Shown piece after piece: positions 1 through 6,385 of a stretch of DNA of 6,385 bases. Position numbers and translations under genes: made by a program. The notes under the pieces are model-generated. The model ran no database searches and was not told the DNA's origin. It saw only the letters and a list, made by a program, of their open reading frames with translations. How positions within the stretch are numbered: the stretch's first letter is position 1; each line of letters begins with the position of its first letter. The stretch is from Planctomycetota bacterium (lineage in GTDB: Bacteria; Planctomycetota; Phycisphaerae; WQYP01), in contig JAJZCT010000206.1 of assembly GCA_021828925.1 (NCBI GenBank), forward strand, positions 1 through 6,385, read 5' to 3'.

Positions 1-63
1 TTGAAATGCTTCTGCGTGACGGCCTATGAGACTCACGGGGCGCAAGGGTGGCGGAATAGTTTC

Positions 64-68
64 AGGAG
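64..68 (+). promoter_or_regulatory. Ribosome binding site of the His/Met-rich lipoprotein gene
   Basis: AGGAG lies 8 nt before the ATG at 77. It decides the start: an in-frame ATG at 26 would add 17 residues ahead of the signal peptide and has no comparable purine tract. With the ATG at 77 the protein begins Met-Asn-Ala-Lys-Arg and goes straight into a hydrophobic signal segment. Confidence 0.8.
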
Positions 69-76
69 TCTTTACG

Positions 77-1066
77 ATGAATGCAAAAAGGTTTATCAGC
101 TTGTTCTCGCTTCTGGCAATCGGCGGCTTGGCAGGCGGCTGTGCTTCCGTGCACGTGCGGCCCATCTGTGTATCGCAGGTGAATGATTCGGCCATTGCGG
201 GGATACGATTTTTTCAGCCCCAACCCTATTTATTGGTGGCTCAAATGCCCGCGAGGCCTGCGCCGCCGATGAAGCCCGAACATGGCCCGATGATGCCGCC
301 CGGCGGACGGTGGAATGGGCCGCACCCCGGTATGCCGATGATGGGCATGGGCGGCCCTACAGGCGCAAAAGGCCGGACCCCGCCGCCAGATATGCTGCAC
401 CATGCAGATCATGGGCAGCATAATATGCGCGGGATGATGCCCGGCCATGGCCGGCAAGGCCCCATGCACCAAGGCCCACGCATGACCCGGCCCAGACCAC
501 CCATGCCAATGATGCCTGGACGGATGTGCCCGATGGCGCGACAGCCACGCATTTACGAACTGCAAATTATTTATCTCCCTGATTACAGTCATCCGTATGT
601 CGCTAATATCCACGGTGGATTGGGCCGCAGTCCCAATTCTCTGGTTCTGGCCAATGGATGGGAGCTCCTGGCAGTCAACGCAGAAGGCAAGGTGACACAA
701 GCCAAACCGATTCGCGCTGTATCGGCTGCCTCGGCCGTGCGCCCTGAGCAACCGATGATGATGCACCATCCCATGCCGGCAATGATGCAGAAAATGGGCA
801 TGACGCACGGCCGACATGGGCAGGCTAAACGTGGGAGCAAACACGCGATGCACAACGGAAATCTCAAGCGGGGCCGGCGGCATGGTCACAGCATGATGCC
901 GCACCCGATGTTCATGCCGGGCCGCGCTGTGATGGCTATGGGATTACACCCCGGACTTTATGCATTTGTATTTAATGCCAAAACCGGCAACCTCGAAGGC
1001 CTCCGGCTGGTGCCGATGCTTCAAGGCCATCCCTGGCATAAGCACACAGACACGATGCGTCATTAG
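77..1066 (+). CDS. Putative lipoprotein with two His/Met-rich low-complexity inserts
   Basis: This encodes a 329-residue secreted lipoprotein of unproven function. Residues 1-21 form a signal peptide (KR, then a hydrophobic stretch) ending in LAGG before Cys22, an acceptable though not ideal lipobox (Ala at -3). Three segments look like one folded, strand-rich domain: about 40-55 (GIRFFQPQPYLLV), 158-206 (YELQIIYLPDY, then NGWELLAVNAEG) and 288-312 (LHPGLYAFVFNA, then GLRLV). The pattern of PxPYLLV, a YLPD strand, GW and LxPGLY recalls small bacterial envelope lipoproteins of unassigned function; this is recollection, not a search result. Inserted into the domain are a stretch at about 57-157 (19 Met, 8 His, many Pro/Gly) and one at about 227-283 (13 Met, 9 His). 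The tail (318-329) is also His-rich. Such composition suits Cu(I)/Ag(I) or other soft-metal binding, which is inference. The stop codon lies inside a repeated hairpin. Confidence 0.85.
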   Translation: MNAKRFISLFSLLAIGGLAGGCASVHVRPICVSQVNDSAIAGIRFFQPQPYLLVAQMPARPAPPMKPEHGPMMPPGGRWNGPHPGMPMMGMGGPTGAKGRTPPPDMLHHADHGQHNMRGMMPGHGRQGPMHQGPRMTRPRPPMPMMPGRMCPMARQPRIYELQIIYLPDYSHPYVANIHGGLGRSPNSLVLANGWELLAVNAEGKVTQAKPIRAVSAASAVRPEQPMMMHHPMPAMMQKMGMTHGRHGQAKRGSKHAMHNGNLKRGRRHGHSMMPHPMFMPGRAVMAMGLHPGLYAFVFNAKTGNLEGLRLVPMLQGHPWHKHTDTMRH

Positions 1067-1100
1067 CTCAATGCGGAAGCGTTGAGTTGGAATCGGGATG
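1057..1100 (+). repeat. Repeat A, copy 1 (hairpin at the end of the lipoprotein gene)
   Basis: This 44-bp unit matches 1206-1249 at 43 of 44 positions, an offset of 149 bp. Its core (1065-1074 with 1079-1088) folds into a 10-bp stem with two G-U pairs, closed by a GGAA tetraloop of the GNRA type. Two further weak U-G pairs can extend it to 1063/1090. The last codons and the TAG stop of the lipoprotein gene fall inside the unit. No T tract follows, so it is not a standard intrinsic terminator; it may stabilise the mRNA 3' end. Confidence 0.8.
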
Positions 1101-1205
1101 TGGTTTAATTGCACGATGTATTACCCGGCGGCATGATTGGCGTGCAGCCTGCCAGGCCAGCGCACGAGTATTTCCCCGACGGTATTCCACCACCAACCAT
1201 AATGC

Positions 1206-1249
1206 GCGTCATTAGCTCAATGCGGAAGCGTTGAGTTGAAATCGGGATG
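1206..1249 (+). repeat. Repeat A, copy 2
   Basis: This unit is identical to 1057-1100 except for A instead of G at 1239. That base sits at the foot of the stem opposite T1212, so the change swaps a U-G pair for a U-A pair and keeps the fold. This copy is fully intergenic, so the conservation is not explained by the lipoprotein reading frame. Confidence 0.8.
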
Positions 1250-1315
1250 CAATTTGACTACGCGATGCGACTACTTCGGCACGATTTGTACGGTGCGTAC
1301 CATTTATTCCACATT

Positions 1316-1350
1316 GCGCTTCGCATCCAACCGTGACGCTGGCGCGTCAG
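1316..1350 (+). repeat. Repeat B, copy 1 (hairpin)
   Basis: This 35-bp unit matches 1414-1448 at 33 of 35 positions, an offset of 98 bp. It contains a perfect 6-bp stem, TGACGC (1334-1339) with GCGTCA (1344-1349), closed by TGGC. Confidence 0.75.
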
Positions 1351-1413
1351 TTGGCGGTGGGCGAATTTGAAATCATCCTTGCCGGGGTTGGGGTGCGGAT
1401 ACTTTCCGTGACA

Positions 1414-1448
1414 GCGTTTCGCATCCAACCGTGACGCTGCCGCGTCAG
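1414..1448 (+). repeat. Repeat B, copy 2 (hairpin)
   Basis: This is the second copy of the 35-bp unit. The stem TGACGC/GCGTCA is unchanged. One of the two differences from copy 1 (C1440 versus G1342) falls in the four-base loop, now TGCC. Outside the stem, CCGT and a downstream ACGG can add four more pairs. The unit is followed 12 bp later by a decayed A-type unit. Confidence 0.75.
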
Positions 1449-1460
1449 GCTACGGCGTTT

Positions 1461-1489
1461 ATTAACTCGTTGCGGAATCGCTGGATTGG
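1461..1489 (+). repeat. Decayed A-like repeat
   Basis: The block from ATTAACTCG to GGATTGG aligns with repeat A (ATTAGCTCA to GAGTTGG) with about seven mismatches over 28 positions. The TGCGGAA core is kept. Pairing of the stem is largely lost, so this looks like a diverged or unrelated copy; homology is tentative. Confidence 0.4.
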
Positions 1490-1515
1490 GGGGATCCGGA
1501 ACCGTGATTTCACGA

Positions 1516-2499
1516 TTATCGGTAACCGTTGGGGTTGGCTTGGAACCAGCGCCAGGGGGAATCTACAATCTCATTGAGATCGGTGATTTTGGCTTTCCAT
1601 GAAAAATCTTTGGCCATTCGATCCGGTGATGCAAAAAGTGCCGGCGGGTCGCCGGGGCGGCGGGCGGTTTCACGCGTGGATATTGTTTTGCCGGTAACTT
1701 TGCGGCAGGCTTCAATAATTTCCCGCACACTGTATCCGCGTCCGACACCGAGGTTATAAAACAAACCGCGGCCCGGCTGCAGATTCTCCAACAGCACCAG
1801 ATGCGCATCAACCAGATCCCACACATGAATATAATCCCGAATACATGTGCCATCCGCAGTCGGATAATCATTGCCGAATATGTCCACCGCCGGGCGCTGG
1901 CCCAGGGCCACTTGCAGCACGATGGGGATCAGATGCGTTTCCGGGCGGTGATCTTCTCCGATGCTGCCATCAAGTGCTGATCCGGCAACATTGAAATAGC
2001 GCGGTGCGGCGAATGCCAAACCCTCGGCATGCGCGGTATCTTTCAGGATTTGCTCAACCATCAGTTTGCTCTGGCCATACGGGCTGATGGGGTTTTGCGG
2101 CAAATCTTCGGTAATCGGCACGCGCTGCGGTTCACCATAGGTGGCGCAGGTGCTGGAAAACACCAGTTTTTTAACCCCCGCCAGATTCATGGCATCCAAC
2201 ATGCTGATGGTGTTGGAAACATTGTTGCGGTAATATTTTCGCGGATCCTGCACACTTTCGCCCACATACGCGCTGGCCGCAAAATGCATAACCGCGTCAA
2301 TTTTATGGGCCTGAAATACCGCCGTCAGGGCCGCCGTATGAGCGCAGTCCATCACTACCAGCCGGGCCTTGCTGTTCACCGCTGCGCGATGGCCCATGGT
2401 AAGATTATCGATGGCGATGACACTGTGGCCGCGTTCAATTAATAATTTCACCGCATGGGAACCGATATATCCCGCCCCACCGATAACCGCAATATTCAT
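1516..2499 (-). CDS. galE: UDP-glucose 4-epimerase (GalE family)
   Basis: This encodes a cytoplasmic NAD-dependent epimerase of 327 residues, interconverting UDP-glucose and UDP-galactose for the Leloir pathway or surface polysaccharide precursors. It is an extended SDR fold. The Rossmann glycine motif GGAGYIGS is at 7-14, the adenine-ribose Asp-Asn pair at 31-32, HFAA at 72-75, the catalytic SSTCATYG at 115-122, and the Tyr-x3-Lys pair at Y141 and K145. Other family landmarks are RYFNVAG (167-173), TCIRDYIHV (218-226) and RRPGD (280-284). Length is normal for the family. The ATG at 2499 is preceded by AAAGG (2506-2510) with 6 nt spacing; an upstream in-frame ATG at 2568 adds 23 unrelated residues and is rejected. 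Leu288 occupies the position of E. coli Tyr299, the substrate-size gatekeeper, so use of N-acetylated sugars cannot be judged. The gene lies 132 bp downstream of the thioredoxin gene on the same strand. Confidence 0.95.
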   Translation of the reverse strand: MNIAVIGGAGYIGSHAVKLLIERGHSVIAIDNLTMGHRAAVNSKARLVVMDCAHTAALTAVFQAHKIDAVMHFAASAYVGESVQDPRKYYRNNVSNTISMLDAMNLAGVKKLVFSSTCATYGEPQRVPITEDLPQNPISPYGQSKLMVEQILKDTAHAEGLAFAAPRYFNVAGSALDGSIGEDHRPETHLIPIVLQVALGQRPAVDIFGNDYPTADGTCIRDYIHVWDLVDAHLVLLENLQPGRGLFYNLGVGRGYSVREIIEACRKVTGKTISTRETARRPGDPPALFASPDRMAKDFSWKAKITDLNEIVDSPWRWFQANPNGYR

Positions 2500-2591
2500 A
2501 GACAACCTTTCCGTGGCAACCCGCAAAGAGGGTAGGGTAATAAAGCTGACACTGAATGTAAAATGCACCCCGCCGCGGCATGTACCCGCAG

Positions 2592-2613
2592 TAAGCGTTC
2601 ACGGCTACGCTTA
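2592..2613. repeat. Inverted repeat between the thioredoxin gene and galE
   Basis: TAAGCGT (2592-2598) and ACGCTTA (2607-2613) are perfectly complementary around an 8-base loop. It lies 18 bp past the thioredoxin stop on the minus strand and about 90 bp before galE. There is no T tract on either side, so it is not a classical terminator; it could be a processing site, partial terminator or operator. Confidence 0.55.
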
Positions 2614-2631
2614 TCAGTATTGGCGGTACAC

Positions 2632-3816
2632 CTATTTCAACAAAGGCTGAATGTCCGCAGTCAGCTTGGCCGCGAGATTCGGCGAATACCCTACGACAAT
2701 GTGCCGCAAAATGCCCTGCCGATCAATCACAAATTGCGTCGGGATTCCGCTGATGCCGAAATCAGCAGCCAGCGGACTCCAGCCGGGATGTTGCGCATCA
2801 AACAATTGCGGCCAGGACATCTTCGGGTGGGCCTTAAGGAACGCCTTGAGCGTTTTGACACTGTTATCATTGGATACGCTTACAATATCCAGGCCTTTGG
2901 CATGGTATTTTTTGTACAGGCTTTCCACATGCGGCAAGCTGGCGCGGCACGGCCCGCACCATGTCGCCCAGAAATCCACCAGAACCACTTTGCCCTTCCA
3001 TTGCGTGGAGTTAAACGGCTTGCCATCCACTTGTGTGCCATGGATGACCACGGGCTTGTTTTTCAAGCTTGTAAGTTTGTCCTGCATGGCCTTTTGCGTG
3101 TTTTCCCGCTTTTGCAGCGCCAAGGCATAAGGACCTTTTAATTCAGTTGTGACGATTTTTTTCAGGCGAGCCTGAATGGTGGGGGCCACCGGTCCGGATT
3201 GCATGAACCCCAGCAGCACAGCCGTCAGGTCATCATTCGTGGGATCAGCTTTGACCAGCTTCTGAATTTGATCCAGAATTGCGGACTCTTTCGCGGTGCT
3301 CGTGCCGCTTCGATGCCACTGCACTTCCAAGTCCGCGAGTTTTGCCGCAAATGCGACGTTGGCGTCTTTGCTTTTTTGGCCCGCGACGATAGCGTTTTTG
3401 GCGCTTGGGTCACCCAGCAAATCCATCAGCGCCAGTTCATGATATTTCACATCCCGAATCATGCCGGCGGCCTTCGGGTAAGACTTCATGAAGGCGTCAA
3501 ATTGATCAATGATGACCTGCATGTGCGGCAAAATTTTCGGTGCAATTTTGGCCCGCAGTACCGGGTCGGTAATGACCTCGCCCAAGCCATGATTACCCAG
3601 AATGTCTTTCATTTTCATGCTTTGAGCATTCATGGCCTCCTGAAGCTTATGCATGGCCTTTTCCAGGCCCTTTGAGACAGCGGGGGCCGCCTGCCCGGTC
3701 GGGGCAGCCGCAGCGCGATCCAGATGCGCCAAATTGCTTAGCGTAAAAAACAACCCGCCGGCGACGGCAACTGCGGCCAGACGCGCCAACCACGTTTTTT
3801 TATTTCTTGAAATCAC
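2632..3816 (-). CDS. TlpA/ResA-like envelope thioredoxin with large N-terminal helical region
   Basis: This encodes a 394-residue exported or membrane-anchored thiol-disulfide oxidoreductase. After a basic start (SRNKK), residues about 10-30 are hydrophobic, followed by an Ala-rich stretch that could be a signal peptidase site (RAAAAP, about 34-39); there is no lipobox Cys. Residues about 45-240 are charged and mostly helix-like, and I do not recognise this part. The C-terminal 140 residues are a TlpA/AhpC-TSA type thioredoxin: VVLVDFWATWCGPCR with CGPC at 287-290, and ISGIPTQFVIDRQG with the cis-Pro at 359. Family members reduce periplasmic disulfides, for example in cytochrome c maturation; the partner here is unknown. 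Four GTG or TTC codons crowd the start. GTG at 3816 is chosen because GGAG (3825-3828) is 8 nt before it; GTG 3819 (5 nt spacing) is possible, while GTG 3825 overlaps the Shine-Dalgarno. Total length is well above a simple TlpA (about 150-200). Confidence 0.9.
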   Translation of the reverse strand: MISRNKKTWLARLAAVAVAGGLFFTLSNLAHLDRAAAAPTGQAAPAVSKGLEKAMHKLQEAMNAQSMKMKDILGNHGLGEVITDPVLRAKIAPKILPHMQVIIDQFDAFMKSYPKAAGMIRDVKYHELALMDLLGDPSAKNAIVAGQKSKDANVAFAAKLADLEVQWHRSGTSTAKESAILDQIQKLVKADPTNDDLTAVLLGFMQSGPVAPTIQARLKKIVTTELKGPYALALQKRENTQKAMQDKLTSLKNKPVVIHGTQVDGKPFNSTQWKGKVVLVDFWATWCGPCRASLPHVESLYKKYHAKGLDIVSVSNDNSVKTLKAFLKAHPKMSWPQLFDAQHPGWSPLAADFGISGIPTQFVIDRQGILRHIVVGYSPNLAAKLTADIQPLLK

Positions 3817-3824
3817 CACGAACA

Positions 3825-3828
3825 CTCC
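3825..3828 (-). promoter_or_regulatory. Ribosome binding site of the thioredoxin gene
   Basis: On the minus strand GGAG precedes GTG 3816 by 8 nt and GTG 3819 by 5 nt. The in-frame GTG at 3825 shares its first base with this motif and so is an unlikely start. The nearby ATG at 3830 is in another frame and meets a TGA after five codons. Confidence 0.6.
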
Positions 3829-3928
3829 ATTTTTTGCGCTGCGAGAAACTCTCCGTAACGCCGAAAAGCCTCACAACTCCACCAACATAAACCCAAGAGC
3901 CTGGACGCGAAAGCCGCCACGTCAATAT

Positions 3929-3958
3929 CCATGACGGCCCTTCAAGGCCGCCTCATGG
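3929..3958. repeat. Hairpin in the thioredoxin leader
   Basis: CCATGACGGCC (3929-3939) pairs with GGCCG plus TCATGG (3946-3958), giving 11 base pairs with a two-base CC bulge and a six-base loop. It is about 110 bp before the thioredoxin start. No T tract follows it on either strand, so its role is open: attenuator, mRNA stabiliser or protein site. Confidence 0.5.
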
Positions 3959-3980
3959 CGCACCTTCGCGTCCACTGCGA

Positions 3981-3997
3981 GCCAATTCCGCATTGGC
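3981..3997. repeat. Short palindrome next to the -10-like box
   Basis: GCCAAT (3981-3986) and ATTGGC (3992-3997) are a perfect 6-bp inverted repeat around five bases. It sits just downstream of the TATAAA box on the minus strand, a position suited to an operator. On the minus strand it contains CAATGCGGAA, the same ten bases as in the core of repeat A. Confidence 0.4.
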
Positions 3998-4081
3998 ACA
4001 CAATTTTATACGTTGCCGCCGGAGGCTGGTCTTTTCAATAAAATTCTGAAAAAAAAGCACTTTTTTTCCTCGCTAATCAGG

Positions 4082-4478
4082 AACAGTACCAAAATAATTT
4101 CCCGATTTGCGCTGCACGCTCACTCGGCACCACCGGCAAAGCCGGCGGCCAGGAGCCTGTCCGAGTAATGGCCGGGATTGCGATGGGTCTGAAATGTCCC
4201 GTATGCGCGGCGGAGGATCAAGCCGACTCTCAATAATGAGTCTGCGAGATCCGACAACAAAGCAGACGGGGCATTTCAGGCCCACCCCGCGGGGCGACGT
4301 GCTTTTTGGCCCCCCTCTGCGGAGCGGCTCCTCGGAGTACCATCCGTGTCAGGTACGCCATCGTCGCCGCTACTTGATGGGAGCCAAAAATCACGCCGTC
4401 GCAACCCGGCGATTACTCGGACAGGCTCCTATGTGAGGGACGGCAAATCAGGTCTTGGGAAGTTATTTGGGACCCGTT
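4082..4478. repeat. Structured non-coding element of nested inverted repeats (MITE-like or ncRNA-like)
   Basis: Four sets of arms fold one inside another. Outer arms 4082-4103 and 4457-4478 agree at 17 of 22 positions; GATTTGC (4104-4110) pairs with 4443-4449. Inner closing arms 4151-4183 and 4399-4430 give 19 continuous pairs, one mismatch, six pairs, one bulged base, then six pairs. Directly abutting are hairpin 1 (4184-4202 with 4266-4284, 19 pairs including two G-U) and hairpin 2 (4298-4314 with 4379-4395, 15 of 17 pairs). Each hairpin has smaller inner stems (GGATC/GATCC and GACTC/GAGTC in the first; AGCGGC/GCCGCT and GTACC/GGTAC in the second). The left arm carries an extra hairpin (CCGGC-AAA-GCCGG, near 4129-4141) absent from the right. 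No target duplication or transposase is seen. It begins 3 bp past the NRAMP stop codon, so NRAMP transcripts would read into it. Confidence 0.75.
4151..4430. repeat. Core 280-bp unit with about 32-bp terminal inverted repeats
   Basis: The core is bounded by a perfect 19-bp inverted repeat beginning AGGAGCCTGTCC (4151-4169 and 4412-4430), extended by imperfect pairing to 4183 and 4399. The strong terminal match resembles the ends of an insertion sequence or a miniature inverted-repeat element. Bases flanking it (ending GGCC on the left, starting ATGTG on the right) show no direct duplication. The interior holds no credible reading frame, and both internal hairpins fill it nearly end to end. 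Confidence 0.7.
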
Positions 4479-4480
4479 GC

Positions 4481-5803
4481 TTAACTCCACAAACCCGCAA
4501 TTCCCGCGTATACACCCACGACAGATGTTAATATCACGATAAATGCCACCACCCAGGCATACCGCCCTTTCAGGCGCCACGGATCAGGCAACGCTTTCCG
4601 CGCCAGCAGAAACAGAAAGCCCAATACAATCGGTAACAGCAAGGCGTTCATGACTTCCACCGCCACTGTCAGCCGCACAAGATTCACGCCGGAAAGCACA
4701 ATGCCGGCACCCAGCAGCAGGCACGCGGAATACACCCCATAAAACCATGGCGCTTCAAACGGATGGTGCGCCAGCGAGCGCCTGTACCCGGTCACTTCAC
4801 CTAATCCCCACGCGGCGGTTAAGGATACCACGATGGTCGCCACCAGCGCCGCTCCCAACATCCCCAATGAGAACACCAGGCGTCCCCACGCGCTTCCCAA
4901 AATCGGTGTTAAAGCGGTGGCAATTTGTTGCACGGTATCCAGCGATACATGTGCATGGGTGCTGCCGATACTCGCGGCTGTAAATATCAAAACCGCCGCC
5001 ATGATGATCTGCGTGATCAACGCTCCAACCGCTGTGTCAAGGCGGGCGGCTTTCAGGTGGGTAATATTCAGGCCTTTGTCGATCACAGCGGACTGCTGAT
5101 AAAAAACCATCCAGGGCATAATGACCGCGCCGACATTCCCGGCAATTAAAAACAAATAGGCGGAATTGTGAATCGGTTGGCTGCGGATCGCGGCTACCAT
5201 CGCCGCGGGCGAGGGATGAGCCGCTACCGCCACAGCGATAAACGCCAGCTCAAAAAGCCCGATAAACAGTGCGACCATTTCCACCTGACGATATCCGCCG
5301 GTGCCCACGACCGCCACCAGAAAAACAATCGTCAGTCCGACGCTGATCCATGGCGAGATTCCGAATAACTGCCCCACGCCTTCAATGCCCGCAAATTCAG
5401 TTAATAGTGCGCCAATGCAGGAAGCCATTAAAGTTGAAACCGACAGCCATGCCCACGCTTTGCCAAAAGTGGCGGAAATCAGTTCTCCGTGTCCTTTTTG
5501 TGTAGCCAGTCCCAGACGGACGGTAAGTTCCTGCACGATGTAAAGGATCGGCACGAGTAACAATTGCAAAACCAGGAGACTATAGCCGAACTGTGCCCCA
5601 CTCTGCGCGGCGGTAATCACGCTTCCGGCGTCCGTATCGGCGAGCATGACCACCAACCCCGGCCCAGCCACCAGCAGCAGCATTTTCCATAAAGTCAATC
5701 GCGGTACCCGTGCCGCCGACCGCCGCGGATTTTCCGCCGAAGGCTGCGGCTGCGGCGTGCCGGTTGCAGACGGCGCAGAGGATTTGTCATATTCAGCGGG
5801 CAT
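4481..5803 (-). CDS. Divergent NRAMP-family divalent metal transporter
   Basis: This encodes a 440-residue inner-membrane carrier of the NRAMP (SLC11) fold, probably coupling metal uptake to protons. After a Pro/Ser-rich cytoplasmic N-tail (1-38) about eleven membrane segments can be picked out: near 42-60, 73-92, 118-138, 150-168, 174-195, 215-238, 258-282, 305-332, 350-370, 376-400 and 412-437. The TM1 signature reads AGPGLVVMLADTDAGSV, so the usual DPGN is D58-A-G-S61; the TM6 signature MPH is M229-P-W231 followed by FYQQSAVIDK. The metal-binding Asp and Met are kept but the Asn and His are replaced, as in a less-studied NRAMP branch, so manganese specificity should not be assumed. The ATG at 5803 has AAAGG (5812-5816) 8 nt upstream. 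The gene is followed at once by the structured element and is divergent from the transposase. Confidence 0.9.
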   Translation of the reverse strand: MPAEYDKSSAPSATGTPQPQPSAENPRRSAARVPRLTLWKMLLLVAGPGLVVMLADTDAGSVITAAQSGAQFGYSLLVLQLLLVPILYIVQELTVRLGLATQKGHGELISATFGKAWAWLSVSTLMASCIGALLTEFAGIEGVGQLFGISPWISVGLTIVFLVAVVGTGGYRQVEMVALFIGLFELAFIAVAVAAHPSPAAMVAAIRSQPIHNSAYLFLIAGNVGAVIMPWMVFYQQSAVIDKGLNITHLKAARLDTAVGALITQIIMAAVLIFTAASIGSTHAHVSLDTVQQIATALTPILGSAWGRLVFSLGMLGAALVATIVVSLTAAWGLGEVTGYRRSLAHHPFEAPWFYGVYSACLLLGAGIVLSGVNLVRLTVAVEVMNALLLPIVLGFLFLLARKALPDPWRLKGRYAWVVAFIVILTSVVGVYAGIAGLWS

Positions 5804-5828
5804 GCCACACGCCTTTAACTATTGGTTC

Positions 5829-5842
5829 CATGAAAAGTCATG
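5829..5842. promoter_or_regulatory. Palindrome upstream of the NRAMP gene
   Basis: CATGA-AAAG-TCATG is a 5-bp inverted repeat with a four-base spacer, 26-39 bp before the NRAMP start codon. Its position fits an operator or a small leader hairpin. It does not match a metalloregulator box that I can name, and no convincing -35/-10 pair was found in the 118-bp gap. Confidence 0.3.
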
Positions 5843-5921
5843 TTATCGCCCGAAAACCGTATCATCTTTCGCCAAGCCCGGTCAGCAGCTACGAAAACCG
5901 GGAGGGTGAACATTACACTAC

Positions 5922-6385
5922 TTGAGACACAGTTTCAACTTCGCACTAAAACTGCCTAGGACACTGGCCTTGGAGGAGAATCTGGAGTTTCGTCATACCA
6001 CACTCTCTCCGGGAAATACCCTCAAGCTCTTTGTTCAACAGGTTGCCAATGGCAACGTGGCCTGCACCGCGATGCGACATCTGGCGGGAGTTGAGTTCTC
6101 CGATTCCGCCTGGTGCCAGGCGCGCCAGCGATTACCAGCTGAACTGATCCAGCGTGTGCATCGCGGAATCATGGATCAGGTAATAAATGAATTAAATTCC
6201 CCTGGCGACGTCGGGGAACCGGACGCTTACCGCTGGCGCGGTCATCGCCTCTTTGTGCTGGATGGCTCCAGCGATTCCATGCCGGATAGTCCGGAACTGC
6301 GGGACTATTATGGTGTGCCTTCGGGTTGCCGCGCAGGGCTGGGATTTCCCACCTCTCACCTGCTGCTGATGATGGATCATCGCAG
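5922..6385 (+). CDS. IS4-type DDE transposase, N-terminal part (cut by window edge)
   Basis: An open frame of 154 residues runs off the right edge without a stop. It reads LEFRHTTLSPGNTLKLFVQQVANGN, then CTAMRHLAGVEFSDSAWCQARQRLP, then YRWRGHRLFVLDGSSDSMPDSPELR and YYGVPSGCRAGLGFPTSHLLLMMD. The order of a helical N-domain, WCQARxRLP, and (F/L)(V/L)DGSSxSMPDxPEL is that of the IS4 superfamily transposases; Asp114 of LDGSS is the probable first catalytic carboxylate. The remaining DDE residues lie outside the window. The frame is closed upstream by TGA at 5907-5909. The start is uncertain: TTG 5922 is the first candidate, with a GGAGG tract rather far upstream (5901-5905); TTG 5970 and ATG 6072 are alternatives, but ATG 6072 would remove conserved sequence. 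Confidence 0.85.
   Translation, partial: MRHSFNFALKLPRTLALEENLEFRHTTLSPGNTLKLFVQQVANGNVACTAMRHLAGVEFSDSAWCQARQRLPAELIQRVHRGIMDQVINELNSPGDVGEPDAYRWRGHRLFVLDGSSDSMPDSPELRDYYGVPSGCRAGLGFPTSHLLLMMDHR
5922..6385 (+). mobile_element. Left part of an IS4-family insertion sequence
   Basis: The element is inferred from the transposase reading frame. Its left terminal repeat should lie between the NRAMP start (5803) and the transposase start (5922), but it cannot be fixed because the partner end is outside the window. The start given is therefore that of the coding region, not the true end of the element. Confidence 0.55.

Follow-up and report, generated by a model that had tools for sequence, protein, structure and literature searches.

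A MITE with IS1182-type ends in a planctomycete genome, nested in a palindromic repeat and carrying an inverted pair of a conserved structured module

Bacterial MITEs are usually regarded as empty shells between two transposase-binding ends. They are short, lack a transposase gene, possess IS-type terminal repeats and insertion sites, and occur in many copies with corresponding empty sites. The element described here shares all of these features but differs in its interior, which is a conserved, covarying, inverted module pair that also occurs under other terminal repeats. In its passages on MITEs, one review (PMC2229807) describes their transcripts as long stem-loops that arise when the two ends pair. 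REPINs (REP doublets) likewise consist of two inverted copies of a palindromic unit, reach high copy numbers, and are thought to move in trans, and a clover-like fold has been proposed for them (in the sections of PMC3116915 that deal with these points). However, REPINs are built of short REPs, whereas the present element contains modules of ~110 nt with internal loops and closing terminal repeats of the kind found in DDE-type ISs; REPINs are associated with RAYTs (HUH), and what sets this MITE apart is that its ends match an IS1182-family element, a distinction drawn from the IS1182 side. The CIR repeats of Caulobacter also have two arms instead of one stem-loop, but the relevant passages of PMC2229807 describe them as linker-joined arms without a closing stem, which the MITE has. 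Finally, the IS1182 family includes IS1272, for which the replacement of target inverted repeats without target duplication is reported in the pertinent part of PMC5678879. The MITE has the terminal repeat and CTAG flanks of elements encoding NF033551 transposases of this family, but it has no transposase inside and shows no stem-loop replacement at the two sites examined. By the features tested below, the element is a MITE; what is new is its conserved paired core.

The window, i.e., the whole 6,385-nt stretch of DNA analyzed here, is from a contig of a Planctomycetota bacterium (JAJZCT010000206.1, positions 1 to 6,385). The first-pass annotation had described positions 4082 to 4478 as a single 397-bp noncoding element in which a long closing stem encloses two hairpins. 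The fold of this region is real and far beyond chance: RNAfold yields -217.1 kcal/mol for the plus strand (100 dinucleotide shuffles, mean of -146.4, z of -12.0, none as good) and -220.4 kcal/mol for the minus strand (z of -13.0, 0 of 100 shuffles as good). Folding recovered the inner closing stem exactly as first described, with 31 pairs, one mismatch, and one bulge (4151 to 4183 with 4399 to 4430), and within it the two hairpins. Hairpin 1 (4184 to 4206 with 4262 to 4284) has 22 pairs, of which the 19 counted earlier are the unbroken part; hairpin 2 (4295 to 4317 with 4376 to 4398) has 19; and the junction between them is occupied by a 3-bp mini-hairpin (4285 to 4294). The notion of one 397-bp element did not survive and is ruled out because homology stops at about 4151 and 4430 and the outer repeat is found elsewhere uninterrupted by an insert. 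The features are as follows (R1 and R2 are covariance models introduced below).

4151..4430, plus strand, 280 bp: MITE, probably of 278 bp (GGAGCC...GGCTCC); multicopy with sharp ends; terminal repeat and CTAG-like flanks in common with IS1182-family elements
4151..4183, plus strand: left arm of the closing stem, comprising the terminal inverted repeat AGGAGCCTGTCCGAGTAAT and a subterminal part; 31 pairs with 4399 to 4430
4399..4430, plus strand: right arm of the closing stem and terminal inverted repeat; pairs with 4151 to 4183
4184..4295, plus strand (sense): structured module A (hairpin 1 and junction); R2, 75.5 bits, E of 6.4e-14
4284..4398, minus strand (sense): structured module B (hairpin 2), inverted homolog of module A; R2, 45.0 bits, E of 8.5e-8; R1, 18.4 bits, E of 0.0061
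4285..4294, no strand assigned: 3-bp mini-hairpin at the dyad center; similar CCC...GGG at that spot in other lineages
4200..4212, plus strand: recurring internal loop of module A, 5' side, CGTATGCGCGGCG; elsewhere often GATGCAAGGCG in the alignments
4255..4269, plus strand: recurring internal loop of module A, 3' side, CAACAAAGCAGACGG; elsewhere often CAACGCMGCAGAYGG in the alignments
4149..4152, no strand assigned: left CTAG-like site, here CCAG; the consensus at both ends of 74 copies is CTAG
4429..4432, no strand assigned: right CTAG-like site, here CTAT; CTAT, CTTT, or CTAC in six uninterrupted outer repeats
4082..4150, plus strand: left half of the 117-bp palindromic outer repeat that the MITE splits; the joined halves match in 7 of 13 genomes, with six uninterrupted copies at 79 to 84%
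4431..4478, plus strand: right half of the same split outer repeat (117 bp, palindromic); the joined halves match in 7 of 13 genomes, and the whole block is missing at three orthologous sites

A pattern search of public genomes for the end of the inner stem retrieved at least 120 stretches; for at least 65 of these, the record title reads Planctomycetota, Phycisphaer..., or Gemmataceae. BLAST of the 397 bp against the listed loci returned 17 full-length homologs (88.9 to 95.8% identity) with limits at ~4151 and ~4430. All nine planctomycete MAGs searched (ZJ5.bin40, JA4.bin8, WY1.bin60, YP3.bin105, BP7.bin26, LL4.bin22, clean5707, SKS5.bin63, and WY1.bin118) contain the MITE; the number of matches per MAG, counting partial matches, ranges from 32 to 121. 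Matches are present in 16 of 28 genomes of the family, and on plasmids none was found. Analysis of the bases around GAGCC...GGCTC in 74 copies revealed a CTAG-like site on both sides (left, C 56, T 45, A 61, G 74; right, C 73, T 68, A 52, G 50). The inner G occurs in 74 of 74 copies and the inner C in 73 of 74, and this near invariance suggests that the element extends from GGAGCC to GGCTCC, with TA probably duplicated inside CTAG; duplication of CTAG itself is the alternative, and the counts do not separate the two. The flanks of the window copy, CCAG and CTAT, show no clean duplication. Empty sites are seen in the outer repeats without an insert and at the orthologous locus of another copy (L144), which is empty in two MAGs with a junction that has neither gained nor lost bases; the outer block has empty sites of its own at three loci. 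At 280 bp, with a largest overlapping frame of 109 aa, the element has no transposase gene. Hence, the many dispersed copies, the sharp ends at 4151 and 4430, and the empty sites that had been proposed as marks of mobility have all been found, and neither of the observations named beforehand as fatal, a single copy without homologs or stems broken at random, was made. The segment from 4151 to 4430 is thus a nonautonomous DNA transposon whose mobility is well supported. By crude ORF calls, on which we base no conclusion, 15 of 23 copies lie between ORFs and 8 of 23 inside them.

Several variants accompany the full-length copies. Palindromes of 47 to 52 bp (L034, L004, L103, L118, L120, and others) consist of two terminal repeats back to back, some with CTAG-like flanks, and look like minimal remnants of the MITE. 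Several copies in JA4.bin8 (G002) match MITE positions 1 to 226 only, which suggests a variant right end. Six copies in LL4.bin22 (L129, L235, L230, L229, L058, and L023) have common flanks (GCGGCCACG and ATGCTGGCCGGC or close variants), and therefore the MITE seems to have been amplified there inside a larger repeat.

The joined flanks of the window copy (69 and 48 bp) constitute a separate 117-bp repeat, with matches in 7 of 13 genomes; the six copies inspected run uninterrupted across the insertion point (79 to 84% identity). The junction between tlpA and nramp is conserved in three related MAGs, where the entire outer and inner block is missing. The uninterrupted outer repeats and the MAGs without the block thus reveal a two-step nesting, in which the 117-bp palindromic repeat inserted after nramp and the 280-bp element then into that repeat. 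In a fourth MAG, SKS5.bin63, a different 86-bp palindrome (AACACTACAGCGC...GCGCTGTAGTGTT; L158) occupies the same post-nramp spot between tlpA and nramp. Positions 47 to 75 of the outer repeat (window 4128 to 4150 with 4431 to 4436; CACCACCGGCAAAGCCGGCGGC) form a small REP-like palindrome that is matched alone many times in several MAGs. Elsewhere in the window, two direct-repeat families lie at and downstream of the end of the first ORF (1057 to 1118 and 1206 to 1267, 62 nt, 87%; 1316 to 1350 and 1414 to 1448, 35 nt, 94%), and 5922 to 6383 holds the start of an IS4-type transposase frame (36 bits, below the family cutoff) cut by the window end.

Four elements of ~1.5 kb, two from Nitrospira, one from Bradyrhizobium, and one from a member of Dehalococcoidia (L024, L074, L077, and L084), have the ends of the MITE with CTAG on both sides and encode IS1182-family transposases (NF033551, E of 3.5e-92 to 9.9e-113); for a fifth end pair (L040), the single frame tested gave no family. 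A counterpart was found in one of the MITE-bearing MAGs, clean5707, as a 1,724-bp element (L246) with the CTAG-flanked ends GAGCCTGTCCGAGTAAT and GAGCCTGTCCAAGTAAC and a 486-aa open frame matching NF033551. The MITE therefore has terminal inverted repeats in common with autonomous ISs, namely, L246 and the above four in other phyla. NF033551 matches were obtained in seven of the nine MAGs, over the cutoff in four; in BP7.bin26 and LL4.bin22, both rich in MITE copies, the same search found no IS1182 transposase. L246, the only complete partner IS, has ~20 bp in common with the MITE, and another copy, L250, has 32 bp; origin of the MITE as a deletion derivative of the known IS is unsupported by such short stretches. 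The first-pass annotation had listed a transposase acting in trans among its options, and this is likely, given the matching ends and CTAG-like sites: most likely, an IS1182-family transposase made elsewhere in the genome would bind the terminal repeats, cut and join them, and so move the MITE. Four MITEs from gammaproteobacteria and Nitrospira that also have this terminal repeat (L071, L067, L053, and L076) are single long hairpins of 165 to 185 bp in which the module was not found.

We analyzed covariation within the MITE family in an alignment of 74 copies, including that of the window (A1; three of 77 were dropped before alignment), using the window's own MFE structure because the alignment-fold consensus missed the long stem of hairpin 2. 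The structure is paired in 94.0% of cells, and structures slid by 1 to 3 columns are paired in 33 to 42%. Both sides change in 29 of 104 pairs, against a shuffle mean of 13.8 (0 of 500 as high), so the pair covariation test proposed for the copies shows that the stems covary. On the tree, same-branch co-changes number 12 in hairpin 1 (null of 2.9, 0 of 500 shuffles), 10 in hairpin 2 (null of 2.4, 0 of 500), and 8 in the closing stem (null of 3.0, 3 of 500); template-switch repair of quasi-palindromes is a possible source of such co-changes. On the same tree, the ratio of standard pairs turning into G-U to those turning into A-C is 34:9 in hairpin 1 (p of 1.7e-4) and 16:22 in hairpin 2, a significant difference (Fisher p of 0.0012), and 102:75 over the six helices counted (p of 0.05). 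For return steps to a standard pair, the ratio of G-U to A-C origins is 14:0 for hairpin 1 and 3:11 for hairpin 2. In unpaired columns, the background of transitions leans toward A-C (57:90), and therefore the hairpin 2 ratio is by itself within background and proves nothing. Accordingly, the plus-strand G-U bias reported at first holds for hairpin 1 but not for hairpin 2. The different ratios agree with hairpin 2 being the module of hairpin 1 read from the minus strand, where R2 finds it, and a single plus-strand RNA, as favored earlier, is thereby ruled out.

The module was traced beyond this family with covariance models. An Acidobacteria MAG contains seven near-identical 278-bp elements with the ends of the MITE, one of which (L089) folds as a closing stem with two hairpins and is weakly related to the MITE by sequence (nhmmer, 16.8 bits). 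R1, a model of hairpin 1 from 34 planctomycete copies, matches L089 and its relatives, with 26.9 to 29.9 bits in the Acidobacteria MAG and up to 48.0 bits (E of 1.3e-7) in bacterium Bpl_9; it matched in 12 of 396 genomes of the phylum of that MAG under strict filters that missed even seed genomes. R2 was built from 29 R1-found matches at Acidobacteria-phylum loci, none of them planctomycete and two of them partner hairpins; since the rows of the corresponding alignment (A3) were found and aligned with R1, R2 inherits the structure and row choice of R1. On the window, R2 retrieves hairpin 1 on the plus strand (75.5 bits) and, on the minus strand, hairpin 2 (45.0 bits), which is in the rows of neither model; the antisense of hairpin 1 scores 9.6 bits. 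These model scores show hairpin 1 (plus) and hairpin 2 (minus) to be inverted homologs of one ~110-nt module. R2 matches occur in at least 54 of 392 genomes of the phylum of the planctomycete ZJ5.bin40 (E of ≤0.001 per genome), a lower bound in that at most nine candidates were scored per genome. Among named records, R2 scores 55.4 bits in Bpl_9 (L060) and 54.0 bits in a Gemmatimonadota MAG (L111), and its match to an Acidobacteria MAG is weak (L104, E of 0.01). A scan of 66 sources gave five matches at an E of ≤1, none of them in the Nitrospira and gammaproteobacterial MITEs (L053, L076, L067, and L071) or the given IS1182 loci. The inverted partner also scores at an E of ≤1e-4 in only 7 of 36 sources.

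Simple sequence homology between the families was considered and rejected: by nhmmer, the Acidobacteria elements score 14.7 to 16.8 bits and L060 scores 21.6, and comparing the window with 17 elements from other lineages gives a global core identity of 0.58 to 0.67, near that of shuffled self-comparisons. Given this weak likeness, cross-phylum homology rests on the covariance models. Whole-element self-palindromy exceeds the best of ten shuffles in only 10 of 21 elements and carries no weight here. Rfam 15 (4,227 families) gave no gathering-level match in the window and none at an E of ≤5 in 4082 to 4478, and at the module loci tested elsewhere, the only hits that fell on modules were of microRNA type, with scores far below gathering (L172 and L321). 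A fluoride riboswitch (RF01734, 45.2 bits) lies at positions 110 to 185 of L343, ~1.3 kb from a module-bearing element. Our searches of an open-access library listed nothing on this element, and in the accessible portion of the MITE review PMC10969869, the terms IS1182, nested, cloverleaf, and hairpin do not occur.

The pattern of change in the module was examined in A3 and in A4, an alignment of 43 module sequences; both are model fitted, which favors pairing. A4 has 89.7% paired cells (shuffles, 52.7%), 389 cells with changes on both sides (shuffles, 120), and a covariation score of 0.843 (shuffles, 0.186). All 27 pairs of A4 have both-side changes, a count barely higher than in shuffles (average of 23.7, with 10 of 500 reaching 27), and pairing in the middle helix is limited to 64.7% of cells. 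In A3, both-side changes affect 24 of 27 pairs versus 12.3 in shuffles, with a score of 0.486 versus 0.133. Structures slid by 1 to 3 columns in these model-fitted alignments are paired in 32 to 49% of cells. The stems thus covary in both alignments, as expected of a structured single-stranded element, and the internal loop often reads GATGCAAGGCG on its 5' side and GCAACGCMGCAGAYGG on its 3' side. Among nonstandard cells, G-U outnumbers A-C by 56 to 8 in A4 (p of 6e-10, with rows that are not independent) and weakly, by 18 to 9, in A3 (p of 0.12). These counts suggest that each module folds on its sense strand, a claim resting mainly on the wobble counts of hairpin 1 and A4.

In other lineages, different inverted repeats, e.g., CTAGCAGGCTGCTGAAAAACTC, AGTGCTCACTTCCATAAATACGG, TAGAACCCATCCCAAAAC, and CTTAGAACCCCTAACAAAG, flank the module at a nearly constant offset, and Bpl_9 has two end versions, with cores 73 to 79% identical to that of the Acidobacteria element. 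A scan detected a closing repeat (score of ≥15) at 20 of 51 modules (12 in a set of 21 loci and 8 in a set of 30, with the window's own family accounting for one of these 8); at 150 control places, none reached this score (maximum of 11). The remaining 31 of the 51 loci are at contig ends or have no closing repeat visible to the scan, and therefore some modules may lie outside elements of this kind. For another terminal repeat, in genome G735, no autonomous partner was seen: inspection by eye of 41 matches of its end revealed no inverted pair 1 to 3 kb apart. Taken together, the stems covary, the internal-loop letters recur across phyla, and the module occurs under other terminal repeats; its shape is kept across several bacterial phyla, and most of its sequence is not.

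We consider it highly probable that the locus is a MITE with IS1182-type ends, inserted in a palindromic repeat just downstream of the nramp gene, with an inverted pair of conserved modules inside. One rival reading, which we judge unlikely, makes it an ordinary MITE of passive palindromes. Its hairpins would then be old foldback duplications without a selected function, whose arms stay complementary through template-switch correction during replication. This would fit the nearly equal folding of the two strands, the excess of same-branch double changes, and the long hairpins of module-less MITEs with the same terminal repeat (L071, L067, and L053). However, correction of one arm by the other leaves unexplained both the unpaired internal-loop letters that recur across phyla while the stems are rewritten and the G-U excess on the sense strand in A4. 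A further reading invokes stem-loop-targeted insertion, in which an IS1182-family transposase recognizes and replaces palindromes, as described for IS1272 (in the part of PMC5678879 on its targets), and the nesting is a product of targeting. The window and L144 copies do sit at the 3' foot of a hairpin, and a left-side foot hairpin (score of ≥6) is present at 5 of 64 copies versus 2.9% of control windows. Nevertheless, no hairpin was lost at either site, hairpins are not enriched over both sides of the 64 copies, which all differ in their flanks (right, 0 of 64 at a score of 6; rank test p of 0.68), and what the sites have in common is a CTAG-like sequence, so that IS1272-like replacement appears very improbable here.

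Two readings that dispense with mobility or with the fold are scarcely credible. The strong fold and covariation would suit an immobile chromosomal noncoding RNA gene, but tens of dispersed copies with differing flanks and empty sites are at odds with it. Likewise, the element might be taken for a decayed coding fragment, since it overlaps two open frames (70 and 109 aa) and its plus strand reads MGLKCPVC..., which resembles a zinc ribbon when judged by eye alone; yet frames and stops vary among six translated copies, and the stems covary, leaving this reading next to no plausibility.

For the MITE with an inverted module pair, the module may act as a single-stranded nucleic acid that folds on its own sense strand. 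It could do so as RNA or, while the DNA is replicated, as ssDNA; the wobble and covariation data are compatible with either. With the modules inverted, any strand that is transcribed or exposed would carry one sense module in its 5' half, and function would be independent of insertion orientation. We more tentatively propose, without regarding it as established or even as the probable outcome, that the core is a mobile structured nucleic acid of ancient origin. This RNA or ssDNA module, paired and orientation-proof, would have survived at least in Planctomycetota and Acidobacteria-type genomes and, over time, swapped its terminal repeats and hence its transposase. If this is true, it would be a structured parasite of several transposases and not a deletion derivative of one IS. 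The module would also enlarge the set of structured families by one for which, at the loci tested, no Rfam 15 model attained its threshold, and R1 and R2 provide concrete models for finding its relatives. More generally, a folded core with rewritten stems, recurring loop letters, and different ends points to a function inside the MITE shell and raises the question of whether the module aids the spread of the element, acts on neighboring transcripts, or recruits a protein.
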